IMG/VR virus record: IMGVR_UViG_3300009703_001833
Location: 1-26,296 of that record
Origin: a virus
Length of the DNA stretch: 26,296 nt
Reading direction: 5' to 3' (one strand)
Below are positions 6,006-24,002 of this stretch, one piece after another. Numbering within the stretch: the stretch's first letter is position 1; the number at the start of each line of letters is the position of its first letter. A program made the translations under genes and the position numbers. The notes beneath the pieces were generated by a model. That model was not told the DNA's origin. It searched no databases and saw only the letters and a list, made by a program, of their open reading frames with translations.

Positions 6006-6007
6006 TT

Positions 6008-6466
6008 ATGTCACCATTAGAAATGATAAAGAACGGATTACTCAACAATGATCTTAAAGAAATTGCTCAAGGTTATAATGCCCTCACGGGAGAAAGCATC
6101 TCAATCGGAGACGAAGAACCAATCGCAGAAATGCCAGAAGCACCTAGAAGTCAACCATACGCAGAAACCGAACAGCCACCAGTGCAGGTGCGGTCGTCGG
6201 ACTTAGACTTCTCAGTAAAACCAAGAGAAGAACAACAAACAAAATATGGAAGAAGACAATCAATACAAATTGGGGAAAATAAGTTTGTTGATAATGGAAC
6301 GGAAGCAAAGGGCGCTGAGTTTGAAACTCCCGATGTTCCTCTAACTCCTAGAAGATCTCCTGTGAAGATGGTTGAAGTTACTTGCCATAATTGTGGAAAA
6401 AAAGAAGAGATTAATCCTAGATACAAAGTAGGTACTTATCATCGTTGCAGTGAATGTTTAGGTTAA
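6008..6466 (+). CDS. Disordered protein with C-terminal zinc ribbon
   Basis: A 152-aa protein. The first 25 residues look like an amphipathic helix (MSPLEMIKNGLLNNDLKEIA). Residues 30-118 are Pro-, Glu-, Gln- and Ser-rich and probably disordered. The end carries a zinc ribbon, with C126/C129 (CHNCGK) and C147/C150 (CSEC). A short N-terminal anchor, flexible linker and metal-binding tip suggest an adaptor that bridges two partners. It lies between the recombination genes and the dnaB-type helicase, so a helicase-loading or ssDNA-binding accessory role is possible but unproven. The gap to the helicase ATG is nine bases. Confidence 0.65.
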   Translation: MSPLEMIKNGLLNNDLKEIAQGYNALTGESISIGDEEPIAEMPEAPRSQPYAETEQPPVQVRSSDLDFSVKPREEQQTKYGRRQSIQIGENKFVDNGTEAKGAEFETPDVPLTPRRSPVKMVEVTCHNCGKKEEINPRYKVGTYHRCSECLG

Positions 6467-6475
6467 GCAGATTAA

Positions 6476-7969
6476 ATGAAAAAAGAACTTAGTGATGTTG
6501 TTTCAGAAAGAGCCGTGCTTGCTGGCTTGATACGGCATGGAAAAAATGCTTTTATTGATATTGATGGAAAACTAAACGAAGGATCGTTTACGTTAGAAGA
6601 AAACACGATAATCTGGAGTTGTCTTGCGAAGCTATTTGATACTTCAGATACAGTTGATTTGTCTAGCCTTTATGCGGCGGCAAAATCAATAGACTTAGAC
6701 TCAGTCTTCATGAAGCGTGTTCCTAAAGACTACTACAAAACCCTTCAGTCTATAAACGTAGAATTAAGCAATGTTAAGGAACATGCAAAAATTTTAGTTA
6801 AGTACGCGATAGCTAGAGAAGTAGATAGGAAAGCAACGCAAATAAAATCAAACATCAGGGATATTAATATCGCTGACAGTACACCGACTGGAATAGTTAG
6901 TGTAGCTGAGGCAGCTGTGTTCAACCTAATTGATGATTTTCATGGGCAAGCAGAAAATGAACCCACCGACATTGGAGAAGACATTGACGACTACATTCAA
7001 AGCTTAATTGATAATCCTAAAGAAATGATGGGTCTAAGTACAGGGTTTCCACGTTTCGATAAAGCTATTGGTGGAGGCTTAAGAAGGGGAAATGTTGATT
7101 TAATTGCAGCCAGAGCTAAAGCCGGTAAGAGTTTGTTTGCAGATAGTGTAGCATTGCATGTTGCTGGAAGTCTTGGAATACCAGTTTTGATGTTAGATAC
7201 AGAGATGTCTAGAGAAGATCACATTCATCGACTACTAGCAAATATGTCCGATATAGAAATAAACGACATATCCACTGGTCAATTTGGAAAGTCTAGTGGT
7301 CTACAAGAGAGAATAAAACAAGGCGTAGAAAAACTAAAAGATCTTCCCTACAAATATGTCACAATAGCTGGAACAAGCTTTGATGAAACGCTTTCTATTA
7401 TGAGAAGGTGGTTAAGAAGAGAGGTTGGTTATGACGAAAACGGCAACACCAATCCATGTTTAGTAATTTATGACTACCTGAAACTTACAAGCTCTGCACA
7501 AATGAACGACATGAAAGAGTTTCAAGCTCTTGGATACCAGATGCAACAACTTGTGAACTTTACTATTAAAGAAAAAGTTCCATGCTTATCGTTTGTGCAG
7601 TTAAATAGAGATGGAATTACCCGTGAGTCAGAAGATGTTATTAGTGGGTCTGACAGGTTGTCTTGGTTTTGCAGCAGCCTAACTATCTTCAAAAAGAAAT
7701 CAGAAGAAGAGCTAGCAGAAGACGCTGGAGAAAGCGGAAATAGAAAATTGGTTCCACTAATAGCTCGTCATGGAGGAGGTTTAGCAGACGACTTTGATTA
7801 CATTAACATGAGCCTCAATGGTGCTTTTGGAAGAATAGACGAAGGGTTCACAAAGTCAGAGTACATTCTAGCTAATAAAAAACAAAAAGAAGGATTTGAG
7901 AACGAAGTTAGCGATAGAGAGGAAGGCTTTGTAGTTGAGGAGGAAATTGATGAAGACAAGCCTTTCTAA
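6476..7969 (+). CDS. dnaB: DnaB-type replicative DNA helicase
   Basis: This 497-aa hexameric 5'-3' helicase unwinds the fork and organises priming. The N-terminal domain (about 1-110) is followed by a linker and a RecA-type motor domain. The Walker A motif is ARAKAGKS at 212-219 and motif 1a is LDTEM at 240-244. The Walker B motif LVIYDYLKL is at 329-337 (Asp333), motif 3 FVQLNR at 373-378, and motif 4 is near GSDRLSW at 391-397. The length is close to that of bacterial DnaB. The C-terminus is strongly acidic and ends in Pro-Phe (VEEEIDEDKPF), unusual for DnaB and reminiscent of the acidic tails of T7 gp4 helicase and bacterial SSB. The codons for that tail also contain the ribosome site of the next gene. 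Neighbours are primase and dNMP kinase. Confidence 0.95.
   Translation: MKKELSDVVSERAVLAGLIRHGKNAFIDIDGKLNEGSFTLEENTIIWSCLAKLFDTSDTVDLSSLYAAAKSIDLDSVFMKRVPKDYYKTLQSINVELSNVKEHAKILVKYAIAREVDRKATQIKSNIRDINIADSTPTGIVSVAEAAVFNLIDDFHGQAENEPTDIGEDIDDYIQSLIDNPKEMMGLSTGFPRFDKAIGGGLRRGNVDLIAARAKAGKSLFADSVALHVAGSLGIPVLMLDTEMSREDHIHRLLANMSDIEINDISTGQFGKSSGLQERIKQGVEKLKDLPYKYVTIAGTSFDETLSIMRRWLRREVGYDENGNTNPCLVIYDYLKLTSSAQMNDMKEFQALGYQMQQLVNFTIKEKVPCLSFVQLNRDGITRESEDVISGSDRLSWFCSSLTIFKKKSEEELAEDAGESGNRKLVPLIARHGGGLADDFDYINMSLNGAFGRIDEGFTKSEYILANKKQKEGFENEVSDREEGFVVEEEIDEDKPF
7938..7943 (+). promoter_or_regulatory. Strong ribosome-binding site for the primase gene
   Basis: A perfect AGGAGG lies six bases before the ATG at 7950 and inside the last codons of the helicase gene. 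It is the best Shine-Dalgarno match that I noticed in the window. It decides the primase start at 7950 over the in-frame TTG at 7935, which would sit upstream of it. Confidence 0.85.
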
Positions 7970-9035
7970 AACAAAGCTTTCAGCGAAAGAATTAAAGAAG
8001 CTTTCAGACAAAGCCGCAAAGAGAATTTGCTTTATACTTTTTCATTTTGGTTACAGGTCGAATGATTGTGGCGATAATGTGTTCTGTCCCTGTCCAATAC
8101 ATGGCGGAGACAATCCAACTGGCTTCTCTATGAACACTGATGAATCTAGTACATACTTTGGAAATTGGGCGTGTTGGACTAATCATTGTCACGAAGAACA
8201 TATAAACACGCCGATAGGTCTTATTAGAGCATTGATGTCAATAAAAGAAGACCGAGAGGTTAGCTTTCAAGAGGCTATTGAGTACACAATAAAGTTAACC
8301 GAAACGGATTTAGATACTTTAGCAAAAGAATCAGAAGATTTTGAGTTCGACACATGTGATTCAAAAACAGAAAGAGAACACCAAAAAAGACAAAGGAATA
8401 TAGATGGTGGTGTTGCAAGAGAAAAAGTTAGGTCTTCATTGGTTATACCGCCAGAGTATTATATTAAAAGAGGATATACAGCTGAGGTATTAAATCAATT
8501 CGACGTAGGTACTTGCCCAAGAGCTAAGAACCCTTCCATGAGAGACAGAGTCATTGTTCCTGTTTATGATGATGATTTTGATTGCATGGTCGGCCATCTT
8601 GGTAGGGCGCAGCACGAAAATTATCATGGTAGGAAGTGGGTTAACTCAGAGGGTTTTTATACTGGAGTTTGGCTCTATGGCTATTGGCTATCAAAGCCAT
8701 TCATAAACAAAGCTAAATCAGTTATATTAGTTGAAGGACAAGGTGATGTCTGGAGGTTGTGGGAAGCTGGGATAAAGAATGTGGTTGGCATTTTTGGTGC
8801 GAGCTTGTCTGATGCTCAAATGAGAATATTAGAAACATCTGCTGCCCTTACTATTATCCCCCTAACAGACAATGATGAAGCTGGGATCAAAGCAAAAGAG
8901 TCAATCAAGAAGAAGTGTGGTAGGATGTTTAATATAGTGGAAGTTGACCTACCAGCCAAAGATGTTGGCGAACTTTCTGTATCTGAAATAAATCAAATCA
9001 TAAAACCACAAATTGAGGGTCTATACAATGACTAG
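7950..9035 (+). CDS. dnaG: DnaG-type primase without the C-terminal helicase-binding domain
   Basis: A 361-aa primase makes the RNA primers for the lagging strand. The N-terminal zinc-binding domain shows CPCPIHGG (C46 or C48, H51) and CWTNHC (C75, C80). A central segment follows with FDVGTCP and MRDRVIVPVYD. The TOPRIM catalytic domain has Glu262 in VEGQGD and Asp307/Asp309 in TDNDEAG. The C-terminal domain that binds DnaB in E. coli is missing; the chain ends about 50 residues after TOPRIM. The start is fixed by the AGGAGG six bases upstream, which gives a 20-base overlap with the helicase. Together with the helicase, this is the primosome. How it is recruited is unclear, though the acidic helicase tail could be involved. 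Confidence 0.93.
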   Translation: MKTSLSKTKLSAKELKKLSDKAAKRICFILFHFGYRSNDCGDNVFCPCPIHGGDNPTGFSMNTDESSTYFGNWACWTNHCHEEHINTPIGLIRALMSIKEDREVSFQEAIEYTIKLTETDLDTLAKESEDFEFDTCDSKTEREHQKRQRNIDGGVAREKVRSSLVIPPEYYIKRGYTAEVLNQFDVGTCPRAKNPSMRDRVIVPVYDDDFDCMVGHLGRAQHENYHGRKWVNSEGFYTGVWLYGYWLSKPFINKAKSVILVEGQGDVWRLWEAGIKNVVGIFGASLSDAQMRILETSAALTIIPLTDNDEAGIKAKESIKKKCGRMFNIVEVDLPAKDVGELSVSEINQIIKPQIEGLYND

Positions 9036-9789: not shown

Positions 9790-10340
9790 GTGTTCCATGG
9801 GATGACAGGATGGTCACCCGTGCAAGAAAAAAAGCTAATCAACTTGGAAAGATAAACAATTCTATTCTAAAGGGTGGCGGCAATGCCGCTGGCTATCTAG
9901 GAGAGGAAGCTGTAGCTGCTTATATAAAAGCTGAAATAATTAGCTGCAATGATGGAAATGATAAATATGATTATGACATATGGTCTAATGATGAACGCAG
10001 AATAGAAATAAAAACTAAAAGAAGAACAGTTGAACCAAGAGACTACTATGATGTGTCAGTTGCTAAAACGAGTGCGCATCAAAGACCTGATCTCTACATT
10101 TTTGTAAGTATAGAATTTGAAGATATGAAGATGGTCAAAGGTAAGCGTGCTTACTATGGCATCAAAAACATTTGGATAGTAGGGCAGGCAGAGCCTGAAG
10201 ATTATTTTTCTAGAGCCAAAATTTGGAGAGCTGGAGACATTGATAAACGAAATGGTTTCAAAACACATGTAGATATGTACAACCTGCCCATATCGGAAAT
10301 AGATGAGTTAGATGATAGTTTGCTACCACAGGAGCAGTAG
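9765..10340 (+). CDS. PD-(D/E)XK-superfamily nuclease-like protein
   Basis: A 191-aa protein with the look of a restriction-endonuclease-like fold. It has a helix with GYLGEEAVAAYI (residues 43-54), then a YDYDIW strand (Asp69/Asp71) and RIEIKTKRR with Glu81-x-Lys83. Further on a strand with LYIFVSIEF follows. The GxxGE helix, Asp and ExK spacing is the usual PD-(D/E)XK arrangement, as in phage and restriction-type nucleases. The target is unknown: host DNA degradation, replication processing and defence are all possible. It overlaps the dNMP kinase gene by 25 bases and the next nuclease by 29 bases, so two nucleases are translated back to back. Confidence 0.75.
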   Translation: MATNKKFISVPWDDRMVTRARKKANQLGKINNSILKGGGNAAGYLGEEAVAAYIKAEIISCNDGNDKYDYDIWSNDERRIEIKTKRRTVEPRDYYDVSVAKTSAHQRPDLYIFVSIEFEDMKMVKGKRAYYGIKNIWIVGQAEPEDYFSRAKIWRAGDIDKRNGFKTHVDMYNLPISEIDELDDSLLPQEQ

Positions 10341-11331
10341 TCTTGGAACGCTAGAGTTTTGCCAGCAAAAATATTTTTTGCAGTACAACCTATCCTTTAA
10401 AGACAAGACCAACAAAAAAGCCTTAATGGGTACTATTACCCATAAGGTCATGCAGACCCTTGGAGACAAGAAGGTTGCTATAAACAAAGGTCTAGACATT
10501 GTAGAGGATGAAGAAACAGGAAAAAACTTGACGCTAGAAGAATGTGATGACCTAAAGCTCTTAAACGACATTGCTTTTGATTATTACAGTAGCGCTTTTC
10601 CAGAGGTCGATATAACAGAAGCAGACAGAAGGAAATGTCTTAAATGGGCAGAAAAGGCAGTAGCCTACAGAGACGGGATGCTAGACCCAAGAAACCAAAA
10701 CGTATTTGCTACTGAGCTATTTTTTGATATTGAAATTAAGCAACCATGGGCTAAATACAAATATGAATTTGAAGGAGAGACAATAGAAGGATACTTATCA
10801 ATCAAAGGAACTGTTGACCTCATTCTAGAACATGGCGATGGTTACTACGAAATATTAGATTACAAGACCGGAAAGAGAATAAATTGGGCGACAGGAGAAG
10901 AGAAGACCCACGAAAAATTGCAGAAGGACACGCAATTGCTTCTGTATTATTACGCCTTGAAAAACATGTATCCAGACAAAGAATTTTCAGTCAGCATCTA
11001 CTACATTAATGATGGCGGATTGTTCTCAATGGTATTTGATGAAGAGGATTATAAAAAAGCAGAACAAATACTCAGAAAGAAGTTTGAACAAATAAGAGAT
11101 ATAGAACAACCAAAACTTCTATCTAATGAAAATAAGCATTGGAAATGCCAGAAGTTATGCAAGTTCAGCCAGCCCTATAAAGAAGGTGCTGAAAAAAGTG
11201 TTTGCCAATACATTAGAGACCAGATAAAGGGTCGAGGTATTGTCGAAGTTGTTGAAAAGTTTGGAAAAATTGACAAGATCGCCACTTACGGAGATGGCGG
11301 CGGAAGATTAGCAGAAGATAATAAAAAATGA
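10312..11331 (+). CDS. Cas4/AddB-like PD-(D/E)XK exonuclease with probable Fe-S cluster
   Basis: A 339-aa nuclease of the PDDEXK_1 (Cas4/RecB/AddB) group. The visible elements are SSSLGTLEFCQQKYFLQY near the start with Cys17, then GTITHKV with His44. GTVDLI (Asp169) precedes YEILDYKTGK (Glu180, Asp183, Lys185), and QLLLYYYA is the conserved helix with Gln208. Cysteines at 279, 283 and 298 near the end, together with Cys17, match the four-Cys Fe-S arrangement of Cas4 and AddB. It probably acts as a 5' end-processing exonuclease in recombination with the RecA-like protein. The ATG at 10312 overlaps the upstream gene by 29 bases; the stop overlaps the polymerase start (ATGA). No CRISPR array or Cas1/Cas2 is seen, so a CRISPR role is unlikely. 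Confidence 0.87.
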   Translation: MIVCYHRSSSLGTLEFCQQKYFLQYNLSFKDKTNKKALMGTITHKVMQTLGDKKVAINKGLDIVEDEETGKNLTLEECDDLKLLNDIAFDYYSSAFPEVDITEADRRKCLKWAEKAVAYRDGMLDPRNQNVFATELFFDIEIKQPWAKYKYEFEGETIEGYLSIKGTVDLILEHGDGYYEILDYKTGKRINWATGEEKTHEKLQKDTQLLLYYYALKNMYPDKEFSVSIYYINDGGLFSMVFDEEDYKKAEQILRKKFEQIRDIEQPKLLSNENKHWKCQKLCKFSQPYKEGAEKSVCQYIRDQIKGRGIVEVVEKFGKIDKIATYGDGGGRLAEDNKK

Positions 11332-13238
11332 GTTGGACTCCATTACACCTACACACCCACTATAGTTTACTAGATGGCCTTTCTAAGCCCTCACAGGTCG
11401 CCTCACGCTGTTCAAAGCTTGGCTATACCTCCTGTGCCATAACTGATCACGGCACGATATCTGGAGCTGTGGCCTTCACACAGGCAATGAAGAAAGAGAA
11501 CATCAAACCAATACTTGGGTGCGAGTTCTACCTAAGCCAGCAAGATTGCACAATTAAAAACGAGGGAAATAGGAAGCTCAGTCATCTTTGCGTGTTAGCT
11601 AAAAACAAGCAGGGTTGGGACAATCTAATCCAAGCAGTATCAAAAAGTAATAATGAAGAAAATTACTACTACAAGCCTAGATTAGACCTCTCTACTCTAG
11701 GTCAGTTTTCTGATAACTTGATCGCTTTCTCTGGTCATCTGGGTAGCGATTTAGCTAATGCGATATTTGTTGATATTAAATCTGCATACAATGCTGTAAC
11801 AATTGACGAAGTCAAAAGATACACCCATCCTGAATGGGATAAACAGGTTCTTGAAGTAGCAAACAAATACAGAGACATATTTGGCAAAGATAACTTCTTC
11901 ATAGAAATCCAAACTATTGACCAAGAAAATTCTCCTGCTTCAAATTTAGTAGCTCAAGGTTTGAGATACATCGCTAAGAAGTATGGATTCAGGACAGTCG
12001 CTACTGCTGACTCTCATTATCCAGAAAAGCAAGATGCTAATGATCAACTCTTATTGCTGTGTTCTTCTTTGAAAACGACACTTCCAAAGATAAGGAAGAA
12101 GCTGAAAGAAACTGGGGATGCTGCTTTTACTGGGTTTATGAGATCAAACAATTTTCATATACCCTCACTGGAAGAAATACAGGCTGTTAACACCCCTCAA
12201 GAAATCGCAACAGCAATGGAGATTGCTGATATGTGTGAGGAGTATGACATTTTAGGCAAGCCAATGCTTCCTAAATTCAAATGCCCCAAAGAACAAACAG
12301 AAGAGCAATATCTCAGAGACCTATGTCGTGATGGATGGAAAAATGTATTAATGCCAACAGGCAAAGTTAATACCCAATCTGCAAAAGATTTATACACAGA
12401 AAGAATTAAGGCAGAGCTTGATGTTATTAGTGACGCCAATCTTTCTGGTTATTTTCTAATTGTTAGAGACATTGTTAATAGTGTGCATCAAAGAAATCAT
12501 ATTCCGGGTCCCGGAAGAGGTTCTGCTGCTGGGTGTTTAGTGTCATATTTAGTTGGTATAACTCAAGTAGATCCAATTGAATATGGTTTAATTTTTGAAA
12601 GATTTTACAATGCTGGAAGAAATACTGCTGATAGAGTCTCCTTGCCTGATATTGATATTGATGTACCAGCTACTAAACGGGATGAAACCATCGACTACAT
12701 CCGACAAAAATATGGAAACGAAAGAGTTGGTCAAATGGTAACTTTTGGTAGGCTGCAAGGACGAAGCGCATTAAAAGAAGTCCTGCGTATGAATGAAGCT
12801 TGCGGTTTTGAAGAAATGAACAATATAACCAAAAGCCTACCTCATGAACATGAAGTATCCGATCAATTAGCTGAAATGGAGGAGTCTTCTGTTATAAAAT
12901 GGACTCTAATGAATCAACCTGAATCTTTGCGAGGTTATTGCCGACTAAATGACGATGGTGAACTTGAAGGAGACTACGCAAAAGTATTTCAACAAGCCAT
13001 GAGAATTGAGGGAACTTTCAAATCTCAAGGAAAACATGCTGCTGGCGTAGTCATATCTTCGCACAACTTAGATCAAGTATGCCCTATGGTCAGAGATAAA
13101 AAAGGATCAGAAAAAATTGCTGGTCTTGAAATGAATGATTTAGAAGCTATGGGTCATGTAAAATTCGATATATTGGGAATCTCATTGATGGATAAAATTA
13201 TGGGTGTGAGAAACCAACTAGAGAAAGCAGATGCATAA
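11328..13238 (+). CDS. dnaE: DNA polymerase III alpha, N-terminal half (PHP domain, palm, thumb)
   Basis: The first of two genes that together encode a bacterial-type replicative DNA polymerase. The 636-aa chain begins with a PHP domain carrying metal-ligand-type residues: HTH at 9-11, Asp16, Asp40/His41, Glu66, His86, His137, Glu193 and Asp228/His230. The polymerase core follows with the GPGRGSAAG motif at 394-402, the palm motif PDIDIDV (Asp441 and Asp443) and the third catalytic Asp614 in VKFDILG. These match E. coli Asp401, Asp403 and Asp555. The chain stops 22 residues after Asp614, exactly where E. coli alpha continues into the fingers, and the missing part is in the gene at 14855. There is no intein-like end. 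An ATGA overlap with the nuclease gene gives the start. Confidence 0.95.
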   Translation: MSWTPLHLHTHYSLLDGLSKPSQVASRCSKLGYTSCAITDHGTISGAVAFTQAMKKENIKPILGCEFYLSQQDCTIKNEGNRKLSHLCVLAKNKQGWDNLIQAVSKSNNEENYYYKPRLDLSTLGQFSDNLIAFSGHLGSDLANAIFVDIKSAYNAVTIDEVKRYTHPEWDKQVLEVANKYRDIFGKDNFFIEIQTIDQENSPASNLVAQGLRYIAKKYGFRTVATADSHYPEKQDANDQLLLLCSSLKTTLPKIRKKLKETGDAAFTGFMRSNNFHIPSLEEIQAVNTPQEIATAMEIADMCEEYDILGKPMLPKFKCPKEQTEEQYLRDLCRDGWKNVLMPTGKVNTQSAKDLYTERIKAELDVISDANLSGYFLIVRDIVNSVHQRNHIPGPGRGSAAGCLVSYLVGITQVDPIEYGLIFERFYNAGRNTADRVSLPDIDIDVPATKRDETIDYIRQKYGNERVGQMVTFGRLQGRSALKEVLRMNEACGFEEMNNITKSLPHEHEVSDQLAEMEESSVIKWTLMNQPESLRGYCRLNDDGELEGDYAKVFQQAMRIEGTFKSQGKHAAGVVISSHNLDQVCPMVRDKKGSEKIAGLEMNDLEAMGHVKFDILGISLMDKIMGVRNQLEKADA

Positions 13239-13449
13239 AAAAAGCCACAGAGAATCCATAAAAGAAAAGATAACAAACGGAAGGTACGTTGAGTATAGAG
13301 GTTTATCTATTTGCAAGATAAATGATTTTTACCCTCTTGCTAACGGGAAAACAAAATACCAAGTTCACTCATATTACTTTAGTGAGCTGTATGAAAATAT
13401 TGATGAAGCGCTAGATAGATTTTTTGAGATAAGAAGGAAAATTAGATGA
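13231..13449 (+). CDS. Hypothetical protein (72 aa) between the polymerase half and exonuclease
   Basis: A 72-aa basic protein with no family that I recognise by name. The pattern (a basic start, a YRGLSICKIND strand, then a YQVHSYYFSELYENIDEALDRFFE strand-helix unit) resembles small phage proteins with a C-terminal 'F.t.eEA' helix. The 49-aa protein encoded at 23853 has a similar end. It overlaps the polymerase N-half stop by eight bases and the exonuclease start by four. Because it directly follows the split point, an accessory role for the split polymerase is conceivable, but nothing in the sequence shows it. It is not an intein fragment: no splicing-block residues are present. Confidence 0.65.
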   Translation: MHKKSHRESIKEKITNGRYVEYRGLSICKINDFYPLANGKTKYQVHSYYFSELYENIDEALDRFFEIRRKIR

Positions 13450-14129
13450 ACTATAGAGACATAATTGTCTTTGACTTTGAAACTGGATCGAGGAATCCAG
13501 ATAGAACTCAACCAGTACAAATTGCCGCAGTTGCCATACATGGGCGTAAACTAACGATTCAACCTGATGGTTATTTTAATAGCTTGATGCGTCCAATATT
13601 CGACGATGAAGAAGCTTTAGAGCTTGGGTTAGACCCAATAGAAGACGAAGCTCTTGCCGTAAACGGTAAAACAAGAGAAGAGCTAGCAAAGGCTCCATCC
13701 GCTAAAACGGTGTGGAAGAAGTTCACTAATTTTGTGAACAAATACAACTTCAAAAAAACACCTTATTACGCCCCAATAGCCGCCGGATATAACATTGTCG
13801 GCTTTGACATGCCCATAGTTCAAAGATTATGCGACATGTATGGGCCAATAGACAAGAAAACAGGAAAACAAACTCTGTTTAATAAAATCCACAGAATTGA
13901 CGTAATGGATAATGTTTGGATGTGGATGGAAAACAATGCTGATGTAAAATCCCTGAGCATGGACTCTATGAGGGACTTATTTGGAATCAGTAAAGAGAAC
14001 GCTCATGATGCGTTACAAGACGTTAAAGATACCGCTAATCTTATGATTGGATTTATGAAACTACATCGCCGTGTTGCACCTAAAGTCAAATTTGAAAAGG
14101 CGTTTGCAGATGGAAACATCCATATATAA
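13446..14129 (+). CDS. dnaQ: DEDDh 3'-5' exonuclease (DnaQ/epsilon-like)
   Basis: A 227-aa exonuclease of the DnaQ fold. ExoI is FDFET (Asp10, Glu12), ExoII includes GYNIVGFD (Asp121), and ExoIII is HDALQD (His187 and Asp192), which defines the DEDDh class. In a Pol III-type system this would be the proofreading epsilon subunit. Its position inside the split polymerase locus supports this. No beta-clamp-binding motif is obvious, and the protein is somewhat shorter than E. coli epsilon (243 aa). A role as an RNase T or a general single-strand exonuclease cannot be excluded. It starts on an ATGA overlap and its end overlaps the methyltransferase gene by 20 bases. Confidence 0.88.
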   Translation: MNYRDIIVFDFETGSRNPDRTQPVQIAAVAIHGRKLTIQPDGYFNSLMRPIFDDEEALELGLDPIEDEALAVNGKTREELAKAPSAKTVWKKFTNFVNKYNFKKTPYYAPIAAGYNIVGFDMPIVQRLCDMYGPIDKKTGKQTLFNKIHRIDVMDNVWMWMENNADVKSLSMDSMRDLFGISKENAHDALQDVKDTANLMIGFMKLHRRVAPKVKFEKAFADGNIHI

Positions 14130-14847
14130 AGAAGAAGTTTGGAAGCAATTAAATGCTATTTCAAAAAAGTCTTGGAGAATAGCTTTAAAGCAGTTATTTT
14201 CAGACCCAATAAACAGGTCTCAAGTTGACGCTTTGAGAAAAGAAAATAATCTAACAGCAGCTTACGAGTTTGGTGTTTACTCTGGAAAGAGTATAGTAGA
14301 AATTGCAAACAATATAGTAGATATTGAAGTTATTTATGGCTTTGACTCTTTTGAAGGTTTGCCAGACAACACTGACAAAGAAAGAAAAGACTCCATAGCA
14401 AAATCAGATTTTTACCAATGGAAATCTGGAGATTTCGATGCTTCCAGTCTTTATGAAACCAAAGATGTTAAATCTTTCTTAAGTGAAATTTTTGTAGAAA
14501 ATCTAAATACGCCAGTGCATTTGATAGAGGGTTGGTTTAGCGAAACTCTCAACAAAGAAACTATAAGAAAATATGACTTGAAGCCAGCGTCTTATATTGA
14601 CATTGATGTTGATACTTATTCTTCTTGTTGCGAAGTGTTGGACTTTGTTTTCACTAATCAAATTGCCGTCTCTGGAACAGTTATTGGATTTGACGATTGG
14701 GGTGGAACTGTCAACTGGAAAACTTTTGGAGATGGTGTTTCCAAATCTTTCGTAGATTCTCTAAAAAAACATGGAGTTGAAGCGGATTTTGTAGTTCAGG
14801 TAGGAGCTTTTTATCCTCATGTACATAGGCTATATTTGGTAAGGTAA
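14110..14847 (+). CDS. TylF-like SAM-dependent methyltransferase
   Basis: A 245-aa class I SAM methyltransferase. Motif I is EFGVYSGKS at 53-61, the following acidic motif is GFDSFEGLP at 77-85, and later YIDIDVDTYSS (162-172) and GFDDW (193-197) match the TylF/MycF macrocin O-methyltransferase group, whose members use metal-binding Asp residues and mostly methylate sugars. I chose the ATG at 14110, which overlaps the exonuclease stop by 20 bases, with an AAAGG site ten bases upstream; upstream GTG and TTG codons are less likely. The gene separates the exonuclease from the second half of the polymerase by position only, with no replication motif. It may be cargo that belongs functionally with the downstream carbohydrate island. 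The substrate is unknown. Confidence 0.82.
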   Translation: METSIYKEEVWKQLNAISKKSWRIALKQLFSDPINRSQVDALRKENNLTAAYEFGVYSGKSIVEIANNIVDIEVIYGFDSFEGLPDNTDKERKDSIAKSDFYQWKSGDFDASSLYETKDVKSFLSEIFVENLNTPVHLIEGWFSETLNKETIRKYDLKPASYIDIDVDTYSSCCEVLDFVFTNQIAVSGTVIGFDDWGGTVNWKTFGDGVSKSFVDSLKKHGVEADFVVQVGAFYPHVHRLYLVR

Positions 14848-14854
14848 TTGTCTT

Positions 14855-16441
14855 ATGAATACTTTTGATCCACTTAAAGTTAACTTTGATGATGAGGCAA
14901 CTTGGGACTTAATTTGTTCTGGACATACTAAGGGAGTCTTTCAGCTTGAAAGTAACCTCGGTAAGTCTTGGGCTAAGCGAGTTAAGCCTAGAAATGTTGA
15001 AGAACTTGCTGCATTAATTTCTATTATTAGGCCGGGTACATTAAAAGCCATTCAAGATGGCAAGTCAATGACTCAGAGGTTTGTTGACAGAAAAAATCTG
15101 ACCGAAGAAATAATTTACATCCATGACTCCCTTGAGCCAATTCTCAAGAACACTCAAGGAGTTCTTGTATACCAAGAGCAGTCTATGCAGATAGCGCAGC
15201 AGCTAGCTGGATTTGACCTTCAAGAAGCCGACAATCTAAGAAAGGCGATTGGTAAGAAAAAAGCCGACTTAATGGCTGAAATCAAAAAGCAGTTCTTATC
15301 AGGAGCAAAAAGGAAAGGCATAGTAGATGCGACGACAGCGGAAGAAATATTCAGTTGGATTGAAAAATCCAGCCGTTATGCTTTTAACAAGTCTCATGCA
15401 GTCTCTTATGCAATTTGCGCTTATTGGAGTGCTTACGCTAAAGCACATTATCCACTTGAGTTTTACTGCAACTATCTTGTGCATTCGTCGAGCAAGATAG
15501 ATCCTCAGCTTGAAGTAAAACAGTTAGTAAATGATGCAAAAAACAATGAGATATACATCAACCCTCCATCTATAAAAGCAATGAATGCAAAAACTGACAT
15601 AATCGACAAGGAGATCTATTTCGGTTTATTAGATGTAAAGACTGTTGGTGAAAGACAGGTGGATAAGTTCAAGCAAATTATAGAAGACAATGAAATTCGT
15701 ATCAATAAAGACTTCAAAGATTGGTCTTGGTATGAATTTCTGGTTCTTGCTTCACCTAGCTTAAGTTCTAGGATGCTTGTTGCAGTGATATCCGTTGGGT
15801 TTTTTAGTCATCTTCCAGAATCCAGATCTAGGATGATTGATGAGTTAGATACTTGGAATGAACTCACCAAGAAAGAAAAGGAATGGGCGATTGATAACTT
15901 TCATAGATTTGATGACATAATAAGTTTGTTGATAGCTTTATCCCCAACCAAAAAAGAGGGCGGCGGAACCTTCAATTCAAAAAGGTCAATCAAAATAAAA
16001 GACTTAGTTATTCAATGCAAAACTCCTTCTTATTCTTTGAACGATGATCCAGAATGGGTGATCAGAACAGAAGAGCATTATTTAGGAGTCGCTCTTACTT
16101 ACTCCAGAGTCGAAGCTTATGATACTAGGCTCGCCAACACAACGATAAAAGAGTTTGTTGATGGAAAGCGTGGAGATGTTAAAATAGCGGTAACGATATC
16201 CGAAGTCAAAAAGTGGGTTACCAAGAAAGGAAAAATGCAAGGGTCTGAGATGGCTTTCCTTTGCGTTGAAGATATGACTGGAACTCTTGATACGGTCACT
16301 GTCTTTTCTGAAAAGTGGAAGGAATACAAGAACGTACTCTATCCCGGAAATAATGTCATCATTTCTGGCCAAAGTAGTAAAACAACCAGAAGACAAATAG
16401 ACGATGGGCTTGTTGTCCAAGACATTATAGAGCTTAATTGA
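14855..16441 (+). CDS. dnaE: DNA polymerase III alpha, C-terminal half (fingers, HhH region, OB fold)
   Basis: The second half of the alpha subunit, 528 aa. It opens with a segment that lines up with E. coli alpha just after the palm, LKVNFDDEATWDLI, then GVFQLES and a IIRPG motif. The fingers region shows VYQEQSMQIAQQLAGF and ADNLRKAIGKK, and SSRYAFNKSHAVSYA at 172-186 is the conserved FNKSH motif. An OB fold lies at about 418-520 (IAVTISEVKKWVTKKGK onward). The two halves sum to 1164 aa, close to the 1160 of E. coli DnaE. The start at 14855 is forced: the frame has a stop at 14840-14842 and no other start codon after it. I see no clear beta-clamp motif. The split differs from the cyanobacterial intein site, which lies at the FNKSH motif. 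Confidence 0.94.
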   Translation: MNTFDPLKVNFDDEATWDLICSGHTKGVFQLESNLGKSWAKRVKPRNVEELAALISIIRPGTLKAIQDGKSMTQRFVDRKNLTEEIIYIHDSLEPILKNTQGVLVYQEQSMQIAQQLAGFDLQEADNLRKAIGKKKADLMAEIKKQFLSGAKRKGIVDATTAEEIFSWIEKSSRYAFNKSHAVSYAICAYWSAYAKAHYPLEFYCNYLVHSSSKIDPQLEVKQLVNDAKNNEIYINPPSIKAMNAKTDIIDKEIYFGLLDVKTVGERQVDKFKQIIEDNEIRINKDFKDWSWYEFLVLASPSLSSRMLVAVISVGFFSHLPESRSRMIDELDTWNELTKKEKEWAIDNFHRFDDIISLLIALSPTKKEGGGTFNSKRSIKIKDLVIQCKTPSYSLNDDPEWVIRTEEHYLGVALTYSRVEAYDTRLANTTIKEFVDGKRGDVKIAVTISEVKKWVTKKGKMQGSEMAFLCVEDMTGTLDTVTVFSEKWKEYKNVLYPGNNVIISGQSSKTTRRQIDDGLVVQDIIELN

Positions 16442-16497
16442 CAAGAAACACTCTGACATATAACATTTATATAAACATTAAAATATACGAGGAATAG
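16442..16497 (+). promoter_or_regulatory. Largest intergenic gap; possible promoter and RBS for ssb
   Basis: This 56-base gap is the longest in the window and very AT-rich. It holds a GAGGA ribosome site (16489-16493) four bases before the ssb ATG. A TATAAA at 16470-16475 and a TGACA at 16454-16458 resemble promoter parts, but their spacing (11 bases) is too short for a host sigma-70 promoter. A phage-specific promoter read by a sigma factor is possible but not shown. I see no hairpin that would act as a terminator of the upstream operon. Confidence 0.3.
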
Positions 16498-16860
16498 ATG
16501 AATACCATTTCTAATTACTGTCGTTTTATCGGGAAAATGGTCAATAATCCGAAACTAGTTGAGTTTGATGCCACTAGTTTATGCACATTTACTCTAGCGA
16601 TAAACGAATATCGCAGAGAAAAGAATGGGGAAAAGAAAAAAACTGTTAATTATTTTGACTTCGAGGCTTGGGATAGCGGTGGACTTGCTATCAATAAGCA
16701 TTGCGAAAAGGGTGATATAATCGACCTAGTCGCTTCAGCAAGAAACAATTCTTGGACTGACAAGAACGGAGAAAAAAGATACGCAACAAAGTTTAGGGTA
16801 AAAGAATTTAAGTTATTCAACACAACTAGGAATAAAGAACCTTCAGGTGTCGAACAATAA
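16498..16860 (+). CDS. ssb: Single-stranded DNA-binding protein
   Basis: A 120-aa SSB with a single OB fold. The opening NYCRFIGKMVNNPKL, then TFTLAINEYRRE, YFDFEAWDSGGLAINKHCEKGDIIDLVA and a late KFRVKEFKLFN strand match bacterial SSB. It coats ssDNA at forks and during recombination. The protein ends right after the OB fold (EPSGVEQ) and lacks the acidic DDDIPF-type tip through which bacterial SSB recruits partners. The helicase in this window carries an acidic tail instead. It has its own ribosome site and is preceded by the largest gap here, which hints at separate or stronger expression. Confidence 0.92.
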   Translation: MNTISNYCRFIGKMVNNPKLVEFDATSLCTFTLAINEYRREKNGEKKKTVNYFDFEAWDSGGLAINKHCEKGDIIDLVASARNNSWTDKNGEKRYATKFRVKEFKLFNTTRNKEPSGVEQ

Positions 16861-17332
16861 AAAAGCAATAGACGCCAAAGAGCTTGAGGAAAGACTTATC
16901 CAAGACAATTATGGATTAGTTATTTCGCAGGCTCTTCGTTTTTTTGAAGACCCCAACTTTGATGACTATGTTCAAGCCGGTTTAATGGGTTTGCTAAAAG
17001 CAATTAGGAAGTATGATAACAGTAAATCTCAATTTGTGAAATACGCTTCTGTTTGCATAAAAAACTCCATATCCAGATTGCAGAAAAAAATAGAGAATCA
17101 TGGATCAAAAAAAGTACGTGTTGTAATAGAACAAGATAGACAGTATTCAACAAAAGAAAAAATAAAAAATTTATTGCCAGAGTCTATATCTGAAGATGAT
17201 AAATTCATACTCAATTGTAGAATAGAAGGTTATACCAACTCAGAGATAGCTAGCTTTATGATGTCTAGCAAGAATGACATCAAGAGTAGAATAGAAATCA
17301 TAATAAAAACTTTGCAAGATTACAATAAATGA
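16847..17332 (+). CDS. Sigma-70-like factor, gp55-type (GTG start)
   Basis: A 161-aa protein with sigma-70 region 2 at about 20-80: DNYGLVISQALRF, then DDYVQAGLMGLLKAIRKYD and FVKYASVCIKNSISR. A C-terminal region 4-like helix-turn-helix lies near 112-156 with a DDKFILNCRIEGYTNSEIASF segment. There is no region 1.1 or 3. The size resembles T4 gp55 (185 aa), the late-promoter sigma factor, so it may direct host RNA polymerase to phage late promoters. The GTG at 16847 is the only credible start: the next Met lies inside region 2. It overlaps ssb by 14 bases and the next gene by four. The gp55 comparison rests on size and region content, not on a detailed match. Confidence 0.8.
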   Translation: MSNNKKAIDAKELEERLIQDNYGLVISQALRFFEDPNFDDYVQAGLMGLLKAIRKYDNSKSQFVKYASVCIKNSISRLQKKIENHGSKKVRVVIEQDRQYSTKEKIKNLLPESISEDDKFILNCRIEGYTNSEIASFMMSSKNDIKSRIEIIIKTLQDYNK

Positions 17333-18960
17333 GAAAAAAAAGAATACTATTTTGCGGTGAAGCTACATATCTTAATACTGGATATGCCACTTATCTTCGT
17401 GAAATTATGAAAAGGCTGCACGCCACTGGAAAGTATGAGTTAGCAGAGTTCGCTAGTTATGGAGAACAAGGCAGTCCAAATGCATCATCTATTCCTTGGC
17501 ATTTTTACGGAAATCTTCCAGTAAATGATGAACAAAAAGAAGTATACGACTCAGTTCCCACAAACCAATTTGGTGAATGGAAATTTGAGGCTGTGCTTTT
17601 GGATTTTCTTCCTGATATTGTTTGCGACATTCGAGACTTTTGGATGCTTGAGTTTCAGGAAAGATCTCCGTTCAGACCTTATTATCATTGGGTGATAATG
17701 CCTACTGTCGATGCTTTTCCTCAAAACGAACAATGGTTAGCGACTTTTGCTAACGCAGACGGTGTCTTCAATTATTCCGATTGGGGGCATGACGTACTAA
17801 AGAAAGAGTCAAACGGCAAAGTTAAATGCTTAGGTAGCGCTCCTCCTTCTGCTGACGCTGCTTATGTGCCTGTAGAAGATAAACAAGAACATAAAATTAG
17901 TTTTGGTTTTGATCCGAAAGCAAAGTTTGTTGGCACAGTGATGAGAAACCAAAGAAGGAAGTTGTTTCCTGACTTGTTTGAGGCATTTAGATTATTCCTC
18001 GATATGTCTGAAGACAACGACACATACTTGTATTGCCATACTAGCTATCCTGATCTCGGTTGGGATATACCAAAACTTTTGAATCAATACTCTTTGTCTA
18101 GCAAAGTATTGTTCACCTATGTCTGCAATAGTTGCGGACACACTTTTCCTTCGTTCTTCTCTGATGCTAGAAGAAAATGCGGATCTTGTGGAAAGTTTAC
18201 TGCCGGATTATCAAACGTGCAAAAAGGTGTATCTTATGAATACCTAGCAAGCACTATGAATATATTTGATTTATATATTCAATATGCAAATAGCGAGGGC
18301 TTTGGCCTGCCTCAAGTAGAAGCAGCGGCTTGTGGTGTTCCAGTCATGAGCGTTGATTACTCAGCAATGAGTAGCGTAGTAAGAAAATTAGGCGGAGTTC
18401 CACTAAAAACAAAAGCCCTATATAACGAAGTAGAAACAGCCTGCAATAGAGCAGTCCCAGATAATGAGAACACGGCAAGAGAGATTAAAAAGTTCTTTGA
18501 TCTTAGCGAAGTCGAAAGAAAGTCTTTATCTAATACAACAAGACTGAATTTTGAAAAATACTATCAATGGGATAAGACAGCTAAAAAGTGGGAAGAATAC
18601 TTTGATAGCGTAGATATTAGGCCATCAAGTCAAAGTTGGGGCGCTCCTGCTAGAATACATCAACCAGCAGCTCAACTAAATGTTGAGCTACCTCCTTCGC
18701 AATATGCTAGATGGCTAATAACAGATGTGCTAGGAGATCAAGAAAAGTTAGGAACATACTTTGAATCTAGATTAATACGAGACCTAAACTACGGAATGTA
18801 TATTAATGGTGCTGGAGAAATGTATCTTAACGAAGACTCCTACAAATTTGTCAAGCCAAATTATGAAGAGTTTGGCCAAGAAGAAGCCTACGAAATGATG
18901 GTTGGCCTTTGTAATAGAAGGAACCAATGGGAACAAAAAAGGAAAGACCTTTTATCATGA
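17329..18960 (+). CDS. GT4-like glycosyltransferase with an inserted zinc ribbon
   Basis: A 543-aa GT-B-fold glycosyltransferase. The N-terminal domain starts with KRILFCGEATYLNTGYATYLREIMKRL. The nucleotide-sugar-binding C-terminal domain has KFVGTVMRNQRRKLFPDLFEAF and the retaining-type EGFGLPQVE motif (Glu323 and Glu331). Between them, at about residues 264-289, lies a zinc ribbon with C266/C269 and C284/C287 (CNSCGH and CGSCGK), an insertion uncommon in GT4 enzymes. About 100 residues after the GT domain form an uncharacterised C-terminal extension. It opens the carbohydrate island and starts on an ATGA overlap with the sigma-like gene. The donor and acceptor are unknown. Confidence 0.87.
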   Translation: MRKKRILFCGEATYLNTGYATYLREIMKRLHATGKYELAEFASYGEQGSPNASSIPWHFYGNLPVNDEQKEVYDSVPTNQFGEWKFEAVLLDFLPDIVCDIRDFWMLEFQERSPFRPYYHWVIMPTVDAFPQNEQWLATFANADGVFNYSDWGHDVLKKESNGKVKCLGSAPPSADAAYVPVEDKQEHKISFGFDPKAKFVGTVMRNQRRKLFPDLFEAFRLFLDMSEDNDTYLYCHTSYPDLGWDIPKLLNQYSLSSKVLFTYVCNSCGHTFPSFFSDARRKCGSCGKFTAGLSNVQKGVSYEYLASTMNIFDLYIQYANSEGFGLPQVEAAACGVPVMSVDYSAMSSVVRKLGGVPLKTKALYNEVETACNRAVPDNENTAREIKKFFDLSEVERKSLSNTTRLNFEKYYQWDKTAKKWEEYFDSVDIRPSSQSWGAPARIHQPAAQLNVELPPSQYARWLITDVLGDQEKLGTYFESRLIRDLNYGMYINGAGEMYLNEDSYKFVKPNYEEFGQEEAYEMMVGLCNRRNQWEQKRKDLLS

Positions 18961-20069
18961 AAGTCCTTTACATAGGTTGCTATAGAGATGGTACTGGCTG
19001 GGGACAAGCAGCTATAGATTACATACTTGCTATGGATCTTGCTGGAATTGATGTAGTTCCTAGACCAATCAAACTCAACTCTAGAAATCACCAGCCACCA
19101 AAAAGAATCTTGGAGTTAGAGGCCAAGAGTTCAAGCGGTGCGGACATATGTATTCAACATACATTACCGCACTTAATGGACTACAGCAATAAATTTAAAA
19201 AGAATATTGCCCTTTACGCCACAGAAACAGACAGCTTTATTGATTCTGGTTGGTCTAGAAAAATCAATATGATGGACGAAGCATGGGTGATAAATAACCA
19301 AATGGTTAAATCTTCCAAAGAAAGCGGAGTCAATATACCAATAAAGGTTGTTCCTCATGCCAGTGATGTAAAAAAGTTTTACAAAAAGTATGACAAGCTT
19401 ACACTACCACAAGCGGAAGGAAACTTTGTTTTCTATACGATTGCGGATTTAAATAGAAGAAAAAATCTTGAATCTTTTATAAGAGCTTTTCATACTGAAT
19501 TTGAGCCTTCAGAGCCGGTCTCAATACTAATTAAATCATCAAAGTACGGAATGGCTACAGAAGATACGGCAAAAAACATAAAAGATATATGCACCAAGGT
19601 GAAGTCTGGTATTAAAAAGTTTATCAGTCTTGATGCTTATAAAGAAGATTTAATAATCGCGGATTTTATTAATGATGAAGCAATTTGTGGAATACATGAA
19701 AGCTGTGATTGTTTTGTGATGCCTAGCTATGGAGAGGCTTGGTGTATTCCTGCTTTTGACGCTATGGGGTTTGGTAACACTCCTATCTGTACGAATGTTG
19801 GTGGAATGGCTGACTTCGTTGGAAACGCTGGATTCTTGATTGAGGGAAGACTAGAGCCTGTCAGAGGCATGACGGAGACTTTTGCAGACTTGTTTACTGG
19901 AAATGAAAATTGGTTATCTATTGATGAGCTAGAGCTTATGAAAGTGATGAGACACGTTTACGAAAACAAGGATGAGCTATCAAGGATGCGTCAAGAAGGT
20001 TTAGAGCAGGCACAGAAGTATTGTCATAAGAATATTGGCGATTTAATGAAGGGGTTGTTAGATGCTTAG
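18957..20069 (+). CDS. GT4-like glycosyltransferase
   Basis: A 370-aa GT-B glycosyltransferase. The N-terminus KVLYIGCYRDGTGWGQAAIDYILAM is a typical acceptor-domain start. A middle VVPHASDVKKF segment and FYTIADLNRRKNLESFIRAF precede the C-terminal donor domain, where the EX7E motif is present as GEAWCIPAFD, with Asp in place of the second Glu. GGMADFVG is the following loop. I chose the ATG at 18957 (ATGA overlap with the upstream stop); the ATG at 18927 lies inside the previous gene. The Asp replacement may be tolerated. Its partner enzymes are the adjacent glycosyltransferases, and the product is unknown. Confidence 0.87.
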   Translation: MKVLYIGCYRDGTGWGQAAIDYILAMDLAGIDVVPRPIKLNSRNHQPPKRILELEAKSSSGADICIQHTLPHLMDYSNKFKKNIALYATETDSFIDSGWSRKINMMDEAWVINNQMVKSSKESGVNIPIKVVPHASDVKKFYKKYDKLTLPQAEGNFVFYTIADLNRRKNLESFIRAFHTEFEPSEPVSILIKSSKYGMATEDTAKNIKDICTKVKSGIKKFISLDAYKEDLIIADFINDEAICGIHESCDCFVMPSYGEAWCIPAFDAMGFGNTPICTNVGGMADFVGNAGFLIEGRLEPVRGMTETFADLFTGNENWLSIDELELMKVMRHVYENKDELSRMRQEGLEQAQKYCHKNIGDLMKGLLDA

Positions 20070-21075
20070 TCCAATTACTTCGATAATTAGAGCAGCCACC
20101 AGAAAAAAAGAAGACAAGCTCAATATTCTCACTTTCCCAACGCATGAGCGTTATGAAAGCATGTTGGCTAAAACTGGTCATAACTTTTACGCATATCGAG
20201 CAGAAGGAATAAAAGACTGGAACGAGACCTATGCTAAAATTCCAGACAATTATATTCTTCTAGATCCTGCTCTTGGAAACGCTCAAGTTCCTCAGTATGT
20301 TGATTTTGATTTAGTTCTTTCGCAGAACAAGTTTGGTCAATTTCAAAAAGCAATACAGTTATCAAAGACTCTACACCTGCCCTTAATTAGCTTAGAGCAT
20401 ACACTCCCTATGCCTCAATGGGATAGCAATGTTATGACGCAAGTTAGGAATATGAGAGGTGATTTGAATCTTTTTATATCAAAATACAGCATCAATGCTT
20501 GGGGATGGGAAGATAAGAATGACACAAGTGTTATAACTCATGGCATAGATACAGATCTGTTCTGTCCAGCGGATGTTGAAAGAAGCGATGAAATCCTATC
20601 AGTTGTGAATGATTGGATAAACAGAGATTGGTGTTGCGGGTTTAATATCTGGAGAGAGACAATAGATGGATTGCCACATAAAGTTGTTGGCGATACGCCC
20701 GGTTTATCTAAGCCAGCATCTTCTACTGAAGAACTTGTCTCAGACTATCAAACTAGTAGGATATTTTTAAATACTTCAACAATATCTCCAGTTCCAACAG
20801 CCTTGATGGAGGCAATGTCTTGTGGATGTGCTGTAGTTTCTACTGCGACTTGCATGATTCCAGAAGTTATAAAACACGGAGAGAATGGATTCATAACAAA
20901 CGACCCTAGAGAAATGAAAGAATACTTAGTCCAGCTTTTGAATGATGAAGACTTATCAAAAGAAATGGGCGAAAAGGCTAGGGAAAGCATTGTTTCTAGG
21001 TATTCTTCTGACAAATTTGTTACTAAATGGAATAAGTTTTTAGACATTGCGTCTAGAAAAGTTTACAGAGGCTAG
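20062..21075 (+). CDS. GT4/GT1-like glycosyltransferase
   Basis: A 337-aa GT-B glycosyltransferase. The first 130 residues form a divergent N-terminal domain with LISLEHTLPMPQWDS and LNLFISKYSINAWGW. The C-terminal domain has VITHGIDTDLFCP, then SPVPTALMEAMSCGCAVVST and EVIKHGENGF, all typical of GT4. The first Glu of EX7E is Ser here, so catalysis may be altered or use another residue. It overlaps its upstream neighbour by eight bases and its downstream one starts one base after the stop, so they form one operon. Confidence 0.84.
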   Translation: MLSPITSIIRAATRKKEDKLNILTFPTHERYESMLAKTGHNFYAYRAEGIKDWNETYAKIPDNYILLDPALGNAQVPQYVDFDLVLSQNKFGQFQKAIQLSKTLHLPLISLEHTLPMPQWDSNVMTQVRNMRGDLNLFISKYSINAWGWEDKNDTSVITHGIDTDLFCPADVERSDEILSVVNDWINRDWCCGFNIWRETIDGLPHKVVGDTPGLSKPASSTEELVSDYQTSRIFLNTSTISPVPTALMEAMSCGCAVVSTATCMIPEVIKHGENGFITNDPREMKEYLVQLLNDEDLSKEMGEKARESIVSRYSSDKFVTKWNKFLDIASRKVYRG

Positions 21076-21076
21076 T

Positions 21077-23853: not shown

Positions 23854-24002
23854 TGGGAAATTATTGGGCTTGGCTTAAAAACAATTACAAATGGTACGCT
23901 TGGAAATATGTAGAAGATAAAGTCAAAGTCAAGCTTGGACCATTTCATACGATAGAAGAAGCTCAAGAAGCGGCAGAAGAATATGAAGATTCTAATAAGT
24001 AG
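23853..24002 (+). CDS. Small protein (49 aa), function unknown
   Basis: A 49-aa reading frame that starts on a TAATG overlap with the nucleotidyltransferase stop and ends inside the next glycosyltransferase gene, overlapping it by 20 bases. The N-terminus is Trp- and Tyr-rich (YWAWLKN, YKWYAWKYV). The end, LGPFHTIEEAQEAAEEYED, is a strand-plus-acidic-helix pattern like many small phage proteins. Without this gene there would be a 130-base gap between genes that otherwise abut, which supports it. I do not recognise a function. Confidence 0.6.
   Translation: MGNYWAWLKNNYKWYAWKYVEDKVKVKLGPFHTIEEAQEAAEEYEDSNK

Follow-up and report, generated by a model that had tools for sequence, protein, structure and literature searches.

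A viral stretch of 26,296 bases (IMG/VR record IMGVR_UViG_3300009703_001833; hereafter the window) carries DNA polymerase III alpha (Pol III alpha) as two genes, broken between the palm and the fingers, with an exonuclease gene in the break. The two genes probably specify a two-chain C-family polymerase that has the exonuclease as its proofreading subunit and descends from an ancestor broken once. The bacterial replicase of textbooks, Pol III alpha, is made as one large chain; the clade to which the window belongs keeps two chains despite its divergence, the identity to the halves of the window falling to 46% (N half) and 40% (C half) within it. A two-chain enzyme is the simplest reading of a break at this place, and the best reading of the break is that it is old and conserved, the polymerase having been kept since as an obligate two-chain enzyme.

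The Two Halves and the Seam

The N half shows the Pfam domains PHP and DNA_pol3_alpha and the C half DNA_pol3_finger, the HHH_6 and OB matches of the latter falling under the Pfam cut-offs (Table 1). In a sequence alignment with Escherichia coli alpha, the N half reaches residue 563 and the C half begins at residue 587. An AlphaFold2 model of the N half (60-row alignment; predicted local distance difference test, pLDDT, 92.8; predicted template modeling score, pTM, 0.90) corresponds to E. coli alpha 4–577 (2hnh, Z 39.3, 568 residues, root-mean-square deviation, rmsd, 2.9). That of the C half (64-row alignment, pLDDT 91.9, pTM 0.84) corresponds to residues 572–1074 (5fku, Z 22.5, 450 residues, rmsd 9.3) and, when compared with 2hnh, to residues 572–910 (Z 21.0, 322 residues, rmsd 2.8); as the rmsd of 9.3 implies, its domain arrangement differs from that of 5fku. 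The HHH/beta-binding region and the OB fold that should follow the fingers are found through this structural match, which spans 572–1074 and includes OB folds. In the models the two chains would thus tile one alpha subunit with a seam near E. coli residue 577, just after the palm. This agrees with the earlier note on the window, made from its letters alone, which had proposed a Pol III alpha in two genes with a palm/fingers break.

All three catalytic aspartates (Asp441, Asp443, and Asp614) are in the N half, which ends 22 residues past the third, both as the note had stated, and they are kept in 60 of 60 aligned N halves. With PHP, palm and fingers domains and this triad, the enzyme has the characters of a C-family Pol III alpha; the one continuous chain of DnaE is what it lacks, there being two open reading frames (ORFs) in 151 of 151 loci (see below). 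Little or nothing is lost at the palm/fingers joint itself. The note had added up the halves to 1164 amino acids (aa) and concluded that nothing was missing; the joint is indeed nearly complete, but the sum is a coincidence, as a longer N half makes up for an absent C-terminal region. In the structural alignment the C half finishes, with its last residue, at E. coli 1074, and the E. coli region beyond, the C-terminal tau-binding region, has no counterpart. FNKSH lies at residue 177 of the C half, and hence the break is not at the cyanobacterial FNKSH site, a point that the note had right.

Nine positions of the PHP domain presumably form its metal site; each is conserved in between 49 and 56 of 60 N halves, varying by position. 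In four loci (L035, L042, L046, and L063) the PHP domain is shortened and several of these presumed metal-site residues are gone, while the exonuclease active site is intact. PHP catalysis is therefore probably dispensable in this sublineage, which retains the exonuclease, as far as can be judged from its residues. In another locus of the clade, L045, the C half matches in two pieces (11130–11939 and 12940–13956) about 1.3 kb apart, a further interruption.

Conservation of the Break

How general is the break? Four IMG/VR scans gave 223 loci, or 224 with the window, which reduce to 170 unique sequences. In 151 of these the locus shows both halves, and every one of the 151 is split, with N half, exonuclease and C half following one another in that order on a single strand; a fused polymerase was found in none of them. 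The gap from the end of the N half to the C-half match ranges from 666 to 4589 bases (median 950). The remaining 19 loci hold the N half only, being cut off, and 13 of them have the exonuclease after it. Grouping the 144 of the 151 loci that could be compared by palm-plus-fingers identity gives 116, 66, and 22 groups at thresholds of 90%, 80%, and 70%, respectively. The rule for calling a locus split or fused was applied to 81 control loci (80 from a scan with fused phage enzymes, which favors fused forms by design, and Moorella phage MTATph1): 80 were called fused, and the other one, unclassified, has both parts in one ORF. An assembly error or a frameshift is ruled out by the identical break in 151 of 151 unique loci. 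The searches that the note had proposed thus turned out in its favor, as relatives share the break, no fused close relative appeared among the 151 loci, and no second full-length alpha was seen in long records.

As to that last point, one palm domain only was found in each of 24 long records, whose sequences may be incomplete, and one fingers domain only in 12 of 12; neither PolB nor PolA was found in 12 long records (0/12 each). Outside the clade, a scan of bacterial genomes gave, as the best 80 of 591, relatives at 30–36% identity. The best full-length match to the N half from a cultured phage is 34% identical among the matches listed (60 of 1345 records), and no cultured phage of the split clade was seen among them. 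For a 120-aa palm fragment, the best among the 60 matches listed is that of Chryseobacterium phage MA9V-3 (54.6%), which encodes its alpha in a single ORF; two records in the 60–80% identity band lie outside this list.

Could an intron, a split intein or programmed bypassing nevertheless yield a single chain once the genes are transcribed? Cyanobacterial DnaE is a known case of a split intein, and the gene is interrupted near residue 420–440 in a Staphylococcus SPbeta-like phage and Bacteroides phage BS-TP1. Against this, the tail of the N half and the lead of the C half together have a median of 38 residues (27–98; 95 of the 151 loci measured), compared with a median of 40 (39–53) at the joint of fused counterparts (six measured out of 23 fused loci, all from outside the sister clade), which usually leaves no space for intein halves, in keeping with the note's view that the ends are not intein-like. 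A scan of window positions 11000–17000, the window alone being scanned, gave no Rfam RNA match, and the gap is at least 666 bases long with a conserved exonuclease gene inside in 151 of 151 loci. Restoration of a single chain is accordingly highly improbable, and an intron, an intein or a pseudogene is an unlikely account of the break in general.

Selection and Gene Packing

The ratio of non-synonymous to synonymous substitution rates (dN/dS) was estimated by the Nei–Gojobori method for ten pairs, distant pairs being saturated at synonymous sites and giving no ratio. For the N half, five of the ten pairs gave 0.023 (window/L002), 0.024 (L004/L006), 0.010 (L013/L047), 0.037 (L006/L058), and 0.052 (window/L013), and for the C half five gave 0.044 (window/L002), 0.047 (L004/L006), 0.017 (L013/L047), 0.050 (L006/L058), and 0.078 (L008/L013). 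The exonuclease gave 0.005 (window/L002), 0.003 (L004/L006), and 0.027 (L013/L047) in three of ten, and the 72-aa ORF that follows the N half in the window 0.08 to 0.15 in six of ten; the methyltransferase between exonuclease and C half gave 0.134 (window/L002). Among the N half, the exonuclease and the C half, the lowest dN is that of the exonuclease in eight of ten pairs. In the pairs giving a ratio, both halves and the exonuclease are under purifying selection.

This selection bears on the idea that the halves are relics and that replication is done by a host enzyme. Host parts may be used, since no phage beta clamp (PF00712) was found in 11 split-clade records or in one sister record. However, besides the purifying selection just described, the catalytic residues are invariant and the genes are retained in 151 of 151 loci, which makes it extremely improbable that the halves are relics.

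The genes are also closely packed. In 72 of the 151 loci the C half, by its estimated start, overlaps the stop of the exonuclease; the start lies at most 30 nucleotides away in 20 more and 31–200 nucleotides away in 37. In relatives such as L004 and L019, the C-half ATG lies within the exonuclease codons for an Ala-Asp-Gly-Asn tail, 20 nucleotides upstream of the stop. The window uses that ATG for the methyltransferase instead, and its C half lies further 3′. Such packing, which looks suited to serial translation, would favor local and equal synthesis of the N half, exonuclease and C half.

The Exonuclease in the Break

The five DEDDh residues (D10, E12, D121, H187, and D192) are invariant in 11 of 11 exonucleases. 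The best PHROG family is phrog_192, "DNA polymerase exonuclease subunit", and PADLOC assigns the general DEDDh model only; a sequence search for relatives of solved structure gave none at E 0.001. The exonuclease sits between the halves in 151 of 151 loci, and in 16 of 16 long split-clade records (4/4 and 12/12, one of the 12 matches scoring under the family cut-off) the sole RNase_T-type exonuclease found is the one in the break. Eight records of the fused sister group, three of them rows of the tree described below (L365, L366, and L407) and five 66–92% identical to sister rows, gave no match to the exonuclease profile (0/8) in a search run without a positive control; the general RNase_T model found an exonuclease in five of the eight, about 42–56 kb from the polymerase by subtraction of coordinates. 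Break and exonuclease thus go together.

Since the active-site motif is intact, the position constant and no other such exonuclease was found, the exonuclease is probably the proofreading subunit, the equivalent of epsilon, contact and function being deduced here from sequence and gene order. An alternative is that the two-chain polymerase is real and the exonuclease an independent nuclease that arrived in the slot by chance. Gene neighborhood is not binding, and with the RNase_T exonuclease 42–56 kb off in five of eight records the fused sister clade seems to manage without a linked one; but the occupancy of the break in every locus, the lack of a second such exonuclease in the 16 records, the PHROG assignment and the low dN all speak against chance, and we consider this alternative unlikely, though not negligible. 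A three-part proofreading core of N half, C half and exonuclease, as the note had suggested, is plausible. A stronger version, in which the replicative core is obligately three-chained and the exonuclease bridges both polymerase chains, so that assembly needs the proofreader and an editing-free polymerase cannot form, is a less likely extension.

Other Genes in the Break

The note had listed three genes in the gap, a 72-aa ORF, a DEDDh exonuclease and a TylF-like methyltransferase. All three are present, but the start of the methyltransferase is more likely ATG 14110 than GTG 14071; this ATG lies inside the 3′ end of the exonuclease gene, with a 20-nucleotide overlap, and many relatives begin the C half there. 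The first and the third do not hold up as parts of the machine. The 72-aa family was detected in 65 of 151 gaps after four search rounds, which weakens the case for a conserved assembly factor, and of the 86 loci without it the first 40 show other small ORFs or none. Among 68 loci, the TylF methyltransferase occurs only in the nearest ones and in L005, L015, and L048, and as a polymerase part it is rejected on account of this sporadic occurrence. The two genes are lineage-specific extras. The 72-aa family has a conserved YQV motif and, judged by eye, seems to consist of strands plus a helix. A second small-ORF family, of about 59 aa with a conserved SCC motif and a weak match to phrog_2183 (unknown function), replaces the 72-aa ORF in another sublineage, in the gaps of many loci between L117 and L154 (e.g., L130:8869–9045).

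Nucleases other than the exonuclease also occur in the gap and give a hint as to the origin of the break. Eight of nine nuclease-like ORFs match HNH or endonuclease VII PHROG families, the exception being L171, which matches none, and in a Pfam search of nine such ORFs (L180 replacing L204) only those of L160 and L167 match a nuclease family, Endonuclease_7. Endonuclease VII is also a resolvase, so that not all gap nucleases need be homing enzymes. A uracil-DNA glycosylase is found in the gap of L106, and further glycosylase-like and methyltransferase-like ORFs were noticed by eye.

Phylogeny and Origin of the Break

A tree of 78 palm-plus-fingers sequences, made by a "quick" method with support from the Shimodaira–Hasegawa-like approximate likelihood ratio test (SH-aLRT), without bootstrap and unrooted, places the 20 split-clade rows in one group (SH-aLRT 100), which is joined with six fused viral rows at 99. 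In 15 fused loci in or near this sister group, HNH, DnaB, and primase matches lie 5′ of the polymerase in 13, and neither the exonuclease nor the 72-aa profile was found in any (0/15).

The joint has also been opened elsewhere. The cultured Rossellomorea phage phiT1 has its polymerase divided at this palm/fingers joint too, into gp20 and gp18, which flank a 50-aa ORF. As forcing phiT1 into the split clade was rejected by the approximately unbiased test (p-AU 0.00036; 30 rows, LG+G4), the joint has probably been opened independently at least twice, as far as the tree can tell. Other breaks in cultured phages, drawn from 60 of 1355 phage records with a match, are at other places: four actinophages (MacGully 68/67, LittleFella 69/70, BiteSize 64/66, and Onyinye 82/84) break between PHP and palm, and Salicola phage SCTP-2 at about residue 427. 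In Bacteroides phage BS-TP1 (L073, PQ571274; 2665–4395 / 5635–7341), the interruption, near residue 426, holds a Dda-like helicase gene; the extra residues on either flank look by eye like intein halves, and most of the span of the second piece has no annotated coding sequence in this stretch. In the Staphylococcus SPbeta-like phage (L074, 4431–4894), dnaE_2 and dnaE_1 are broken near residue 419–441 with about 460 bases between, possibly an intron.

Might the break instead be primary and ancestral, and the fused forms derived by fusion? The tree is unrooted, and fusion from a split state has been proposed for the minimal version of jumbo phages (PMC7824862). Nevertheless, the split rows form one group amid fused phage and bacterial enzymes, and phiT1 indicates that breaks at this joint arise anew; an ancestral break is very unlikely.

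An outline of the preferred account, a polymerase broken once and kept in two chains, is as follows: a single-chain ancestor in a helicase–primase–polymerase neighborhood would have been broken once, most likely, though on slight grounds, through insertion of a gene of the homing-endonuclease type, and the exonuclease would then have come into the break, which afterwards may have gained lineage-specific small genes, endonucleases, uracil-DNA glycosylases, and methyltransferases. From the closely packed and often overlapping gene run, two chains would be made, one with PHP, palm, thumb, and the whole catalytic triad and the other with fingers, HHH/beta-binding region, and OB fold. They would bind non-covalently along the former palm/fingers seam in the ordinary geometry of Pol III alpha, and the exonuclease would bind the polymerase as epsilon binds alpha.

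Several points weigh against this account. What supports a two-chain enzyme is genes, their conservation and complementary predicted folds, from which we infer binding and activity, and the position of the exonuclease in the break is not proof of contact with the polymerase. The 151 loci are not independent of each other, and distant fused relatives would go unlisted, because the alignment-based IMG/VR scans gave the best 80 of 551 and the best 80 of 590 relatives. Three of the N-only loci (L030, L121, and L151) run 1.2–2.5 kb past the exonuclease without a C half, which may therefore lie farther off, the other N-only loci ending sooner. The C half starts more than 200 nucleotides from the exonuclease stop in 22 of the 151 loci. 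As for the trigger, relatives of the HNH and endonuclease VII-like genes are in 13 of 151 gaps only, eight of the 13 being the query ORFs themselves, and may postdate the break.

Gene Neighborhood

One series of plus-strand genes in the window comprises a UvsX-like recombinase, an HNH endonuclease, a DnaB-like helicase, a primase, a deoxynucleoside monophosphate kinase, a PD-(D/E)XK nuclease, the polymerase region, a single-strand DNA-binding protein (SSB), a sigma-factor-like gene, and glycosyltransferases. The ORF list bears out the genes that the note had described for the polymerase region, all of them on the plus strand.

Table 1. Genes of the polymerase region and its neighbors in the window.
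Feature	Position	Strand	Remarks
DnaB-like helicase	6476-7969	+	phrog_19
Primase	7935-9035	+	phrog_47
PD-(D/E)XK nuclease, conserved upstream neighbor	10312..11331	+	PF12705
Pol III alpha N half	11328..13238	+	636 aa; PHP + palm + thumb, all three catalytic Asp; PHP (PF02811), DNA_pol3_alpha (PF07733)
72-aa ORF, lineage-specific	13231..13449	+	
DEDDh 3′–5′ exonuclease, probable proofreading subunit; in the break of all 151 loci	13446..14129	+	227 aa; PF00929 (RNase_T), phrog_192
TylF-like methyltransferase, sublineage passenger	14110..14847	+	PF05711; start of the ORF finder GTG 14071 (258 aa)
Pol III alpha C half	14855..16441	+	528 aa; fingers + HHH/beta-binding region + OB fold; DNA_pol3_finger (PF17657)
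SSB, conserved downstream neighbor	16498..16860	+	PF00436

A pair similar to the helicase and primase (6476..9035) is also 5′ of the polymerase in the fused sister clade, a case of synteny. Across the 68-locus set, the PD-(D/E)XK nuclease lies 5′ of the N half except in L043, L044, and L068, which begin too near the N half to include it, and SSB lies 3′ of the C half in those loci long enough to reach it. Downstream of SSB (16847–25973), the sigma-factor-like gene, several glycosyltransferases and a nucleotide-sugar epimerase resemble a surface-glycan cluster. A tRNA search across the whole window found none. In a relative of 161 kb, 20 large ORFs include matches to terminase, portal, tail fiber, rIIA, and ribonucleotide reductase; these matches gave no pointer to its host.

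The clade suggests that the palm/fingers joint is separable in nature, and provides a natural system for asking whether proofreading and polymerase assembly can be coupled. For annotators, such halves should be taken neither as fragments nor as frameshifts.

Comparison with Known Systems

The note had called the arrangement unusual. It is so beside ordinary DnaE, but within a large clade the break is the rule, and other split phage replicases are known; searches of open-licence PubMed Central papers gave, among the matches listed, no description of a clade with the palm/fingers break and the exonuclease. The papers cited here are represented by excerpts: that of a survey of bacterial polymerases mentions no split alpha (PMC12926913), another notes, for a marine group of jumbo phages, that about half carry PF07733, and mentions no split (PMC9123017), a third describes DnaE phages of Bacteroides (PMC8008677), and a fourth mentions no split polymerase (PMC2993671).

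In T4-like Aeromonas phages, according to the excerpt of PMC2988022, PolB is split as gp43A/gp43B, by insertion of a seg-type homing endonuclease in phage 25 and by untranslated sequence in 44RR, and the proteins made from 43A and 43B in phage 25 purify together and are active as a polymerase. Homing endonucleases of T4-like phages split other genes with the halves still working, such as nrdA of Aeh1, and an endonuclease may also enter a gene already split (PMC2988022), so that the same caution applies to the gap nucleases here. The window resembles gp43A/gp43B in having a phage replicative polymerase from two genes, but those proteins are of family B, and that excerpt does not mention an exonuclease gene within the break (PMC2988022).

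Group 2.2 jumbo phages have a minimal split Pol III alpha with distant genes, other Pol III domains being absent and a PolB present alongside (excerpt of PMC7824862). They likewise have a C-family alpha in two phage proteins; in the present clade, however, the enzyme extends from PHP to OB, the genes are linked, PolB was found in none of 12 long records and the break is past the third aspartate. The match of Salicola phage SCTP-2 gp291 ends at about residue 427 of the window N half, before the catalytic Asp pair; gp291 would belong to the group 2.2 version, its break position differing from that of the window. Phage phiT1 shares with the split clade the palm/fingers break and a small ORF in the gap, but has no exonuclease there and falls outside the clade in the tree test. 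The DnaE of the four actinophages is also made from two genes, adjacent or nearly so, but is broken between PHP and palm, which share one ORF in the window.

Cyanobacterial DnaE is encoded by two genes, broken at the FNKSH region, and a split intein joins the halves; the window also has two dnaE genes, but without any sign of intein halves and with FNKSH at residue 177 of the C half. In PolC, a DEDDh exonuclease lies inside the polymerase chain, whereas that of the window is a separate ORF.

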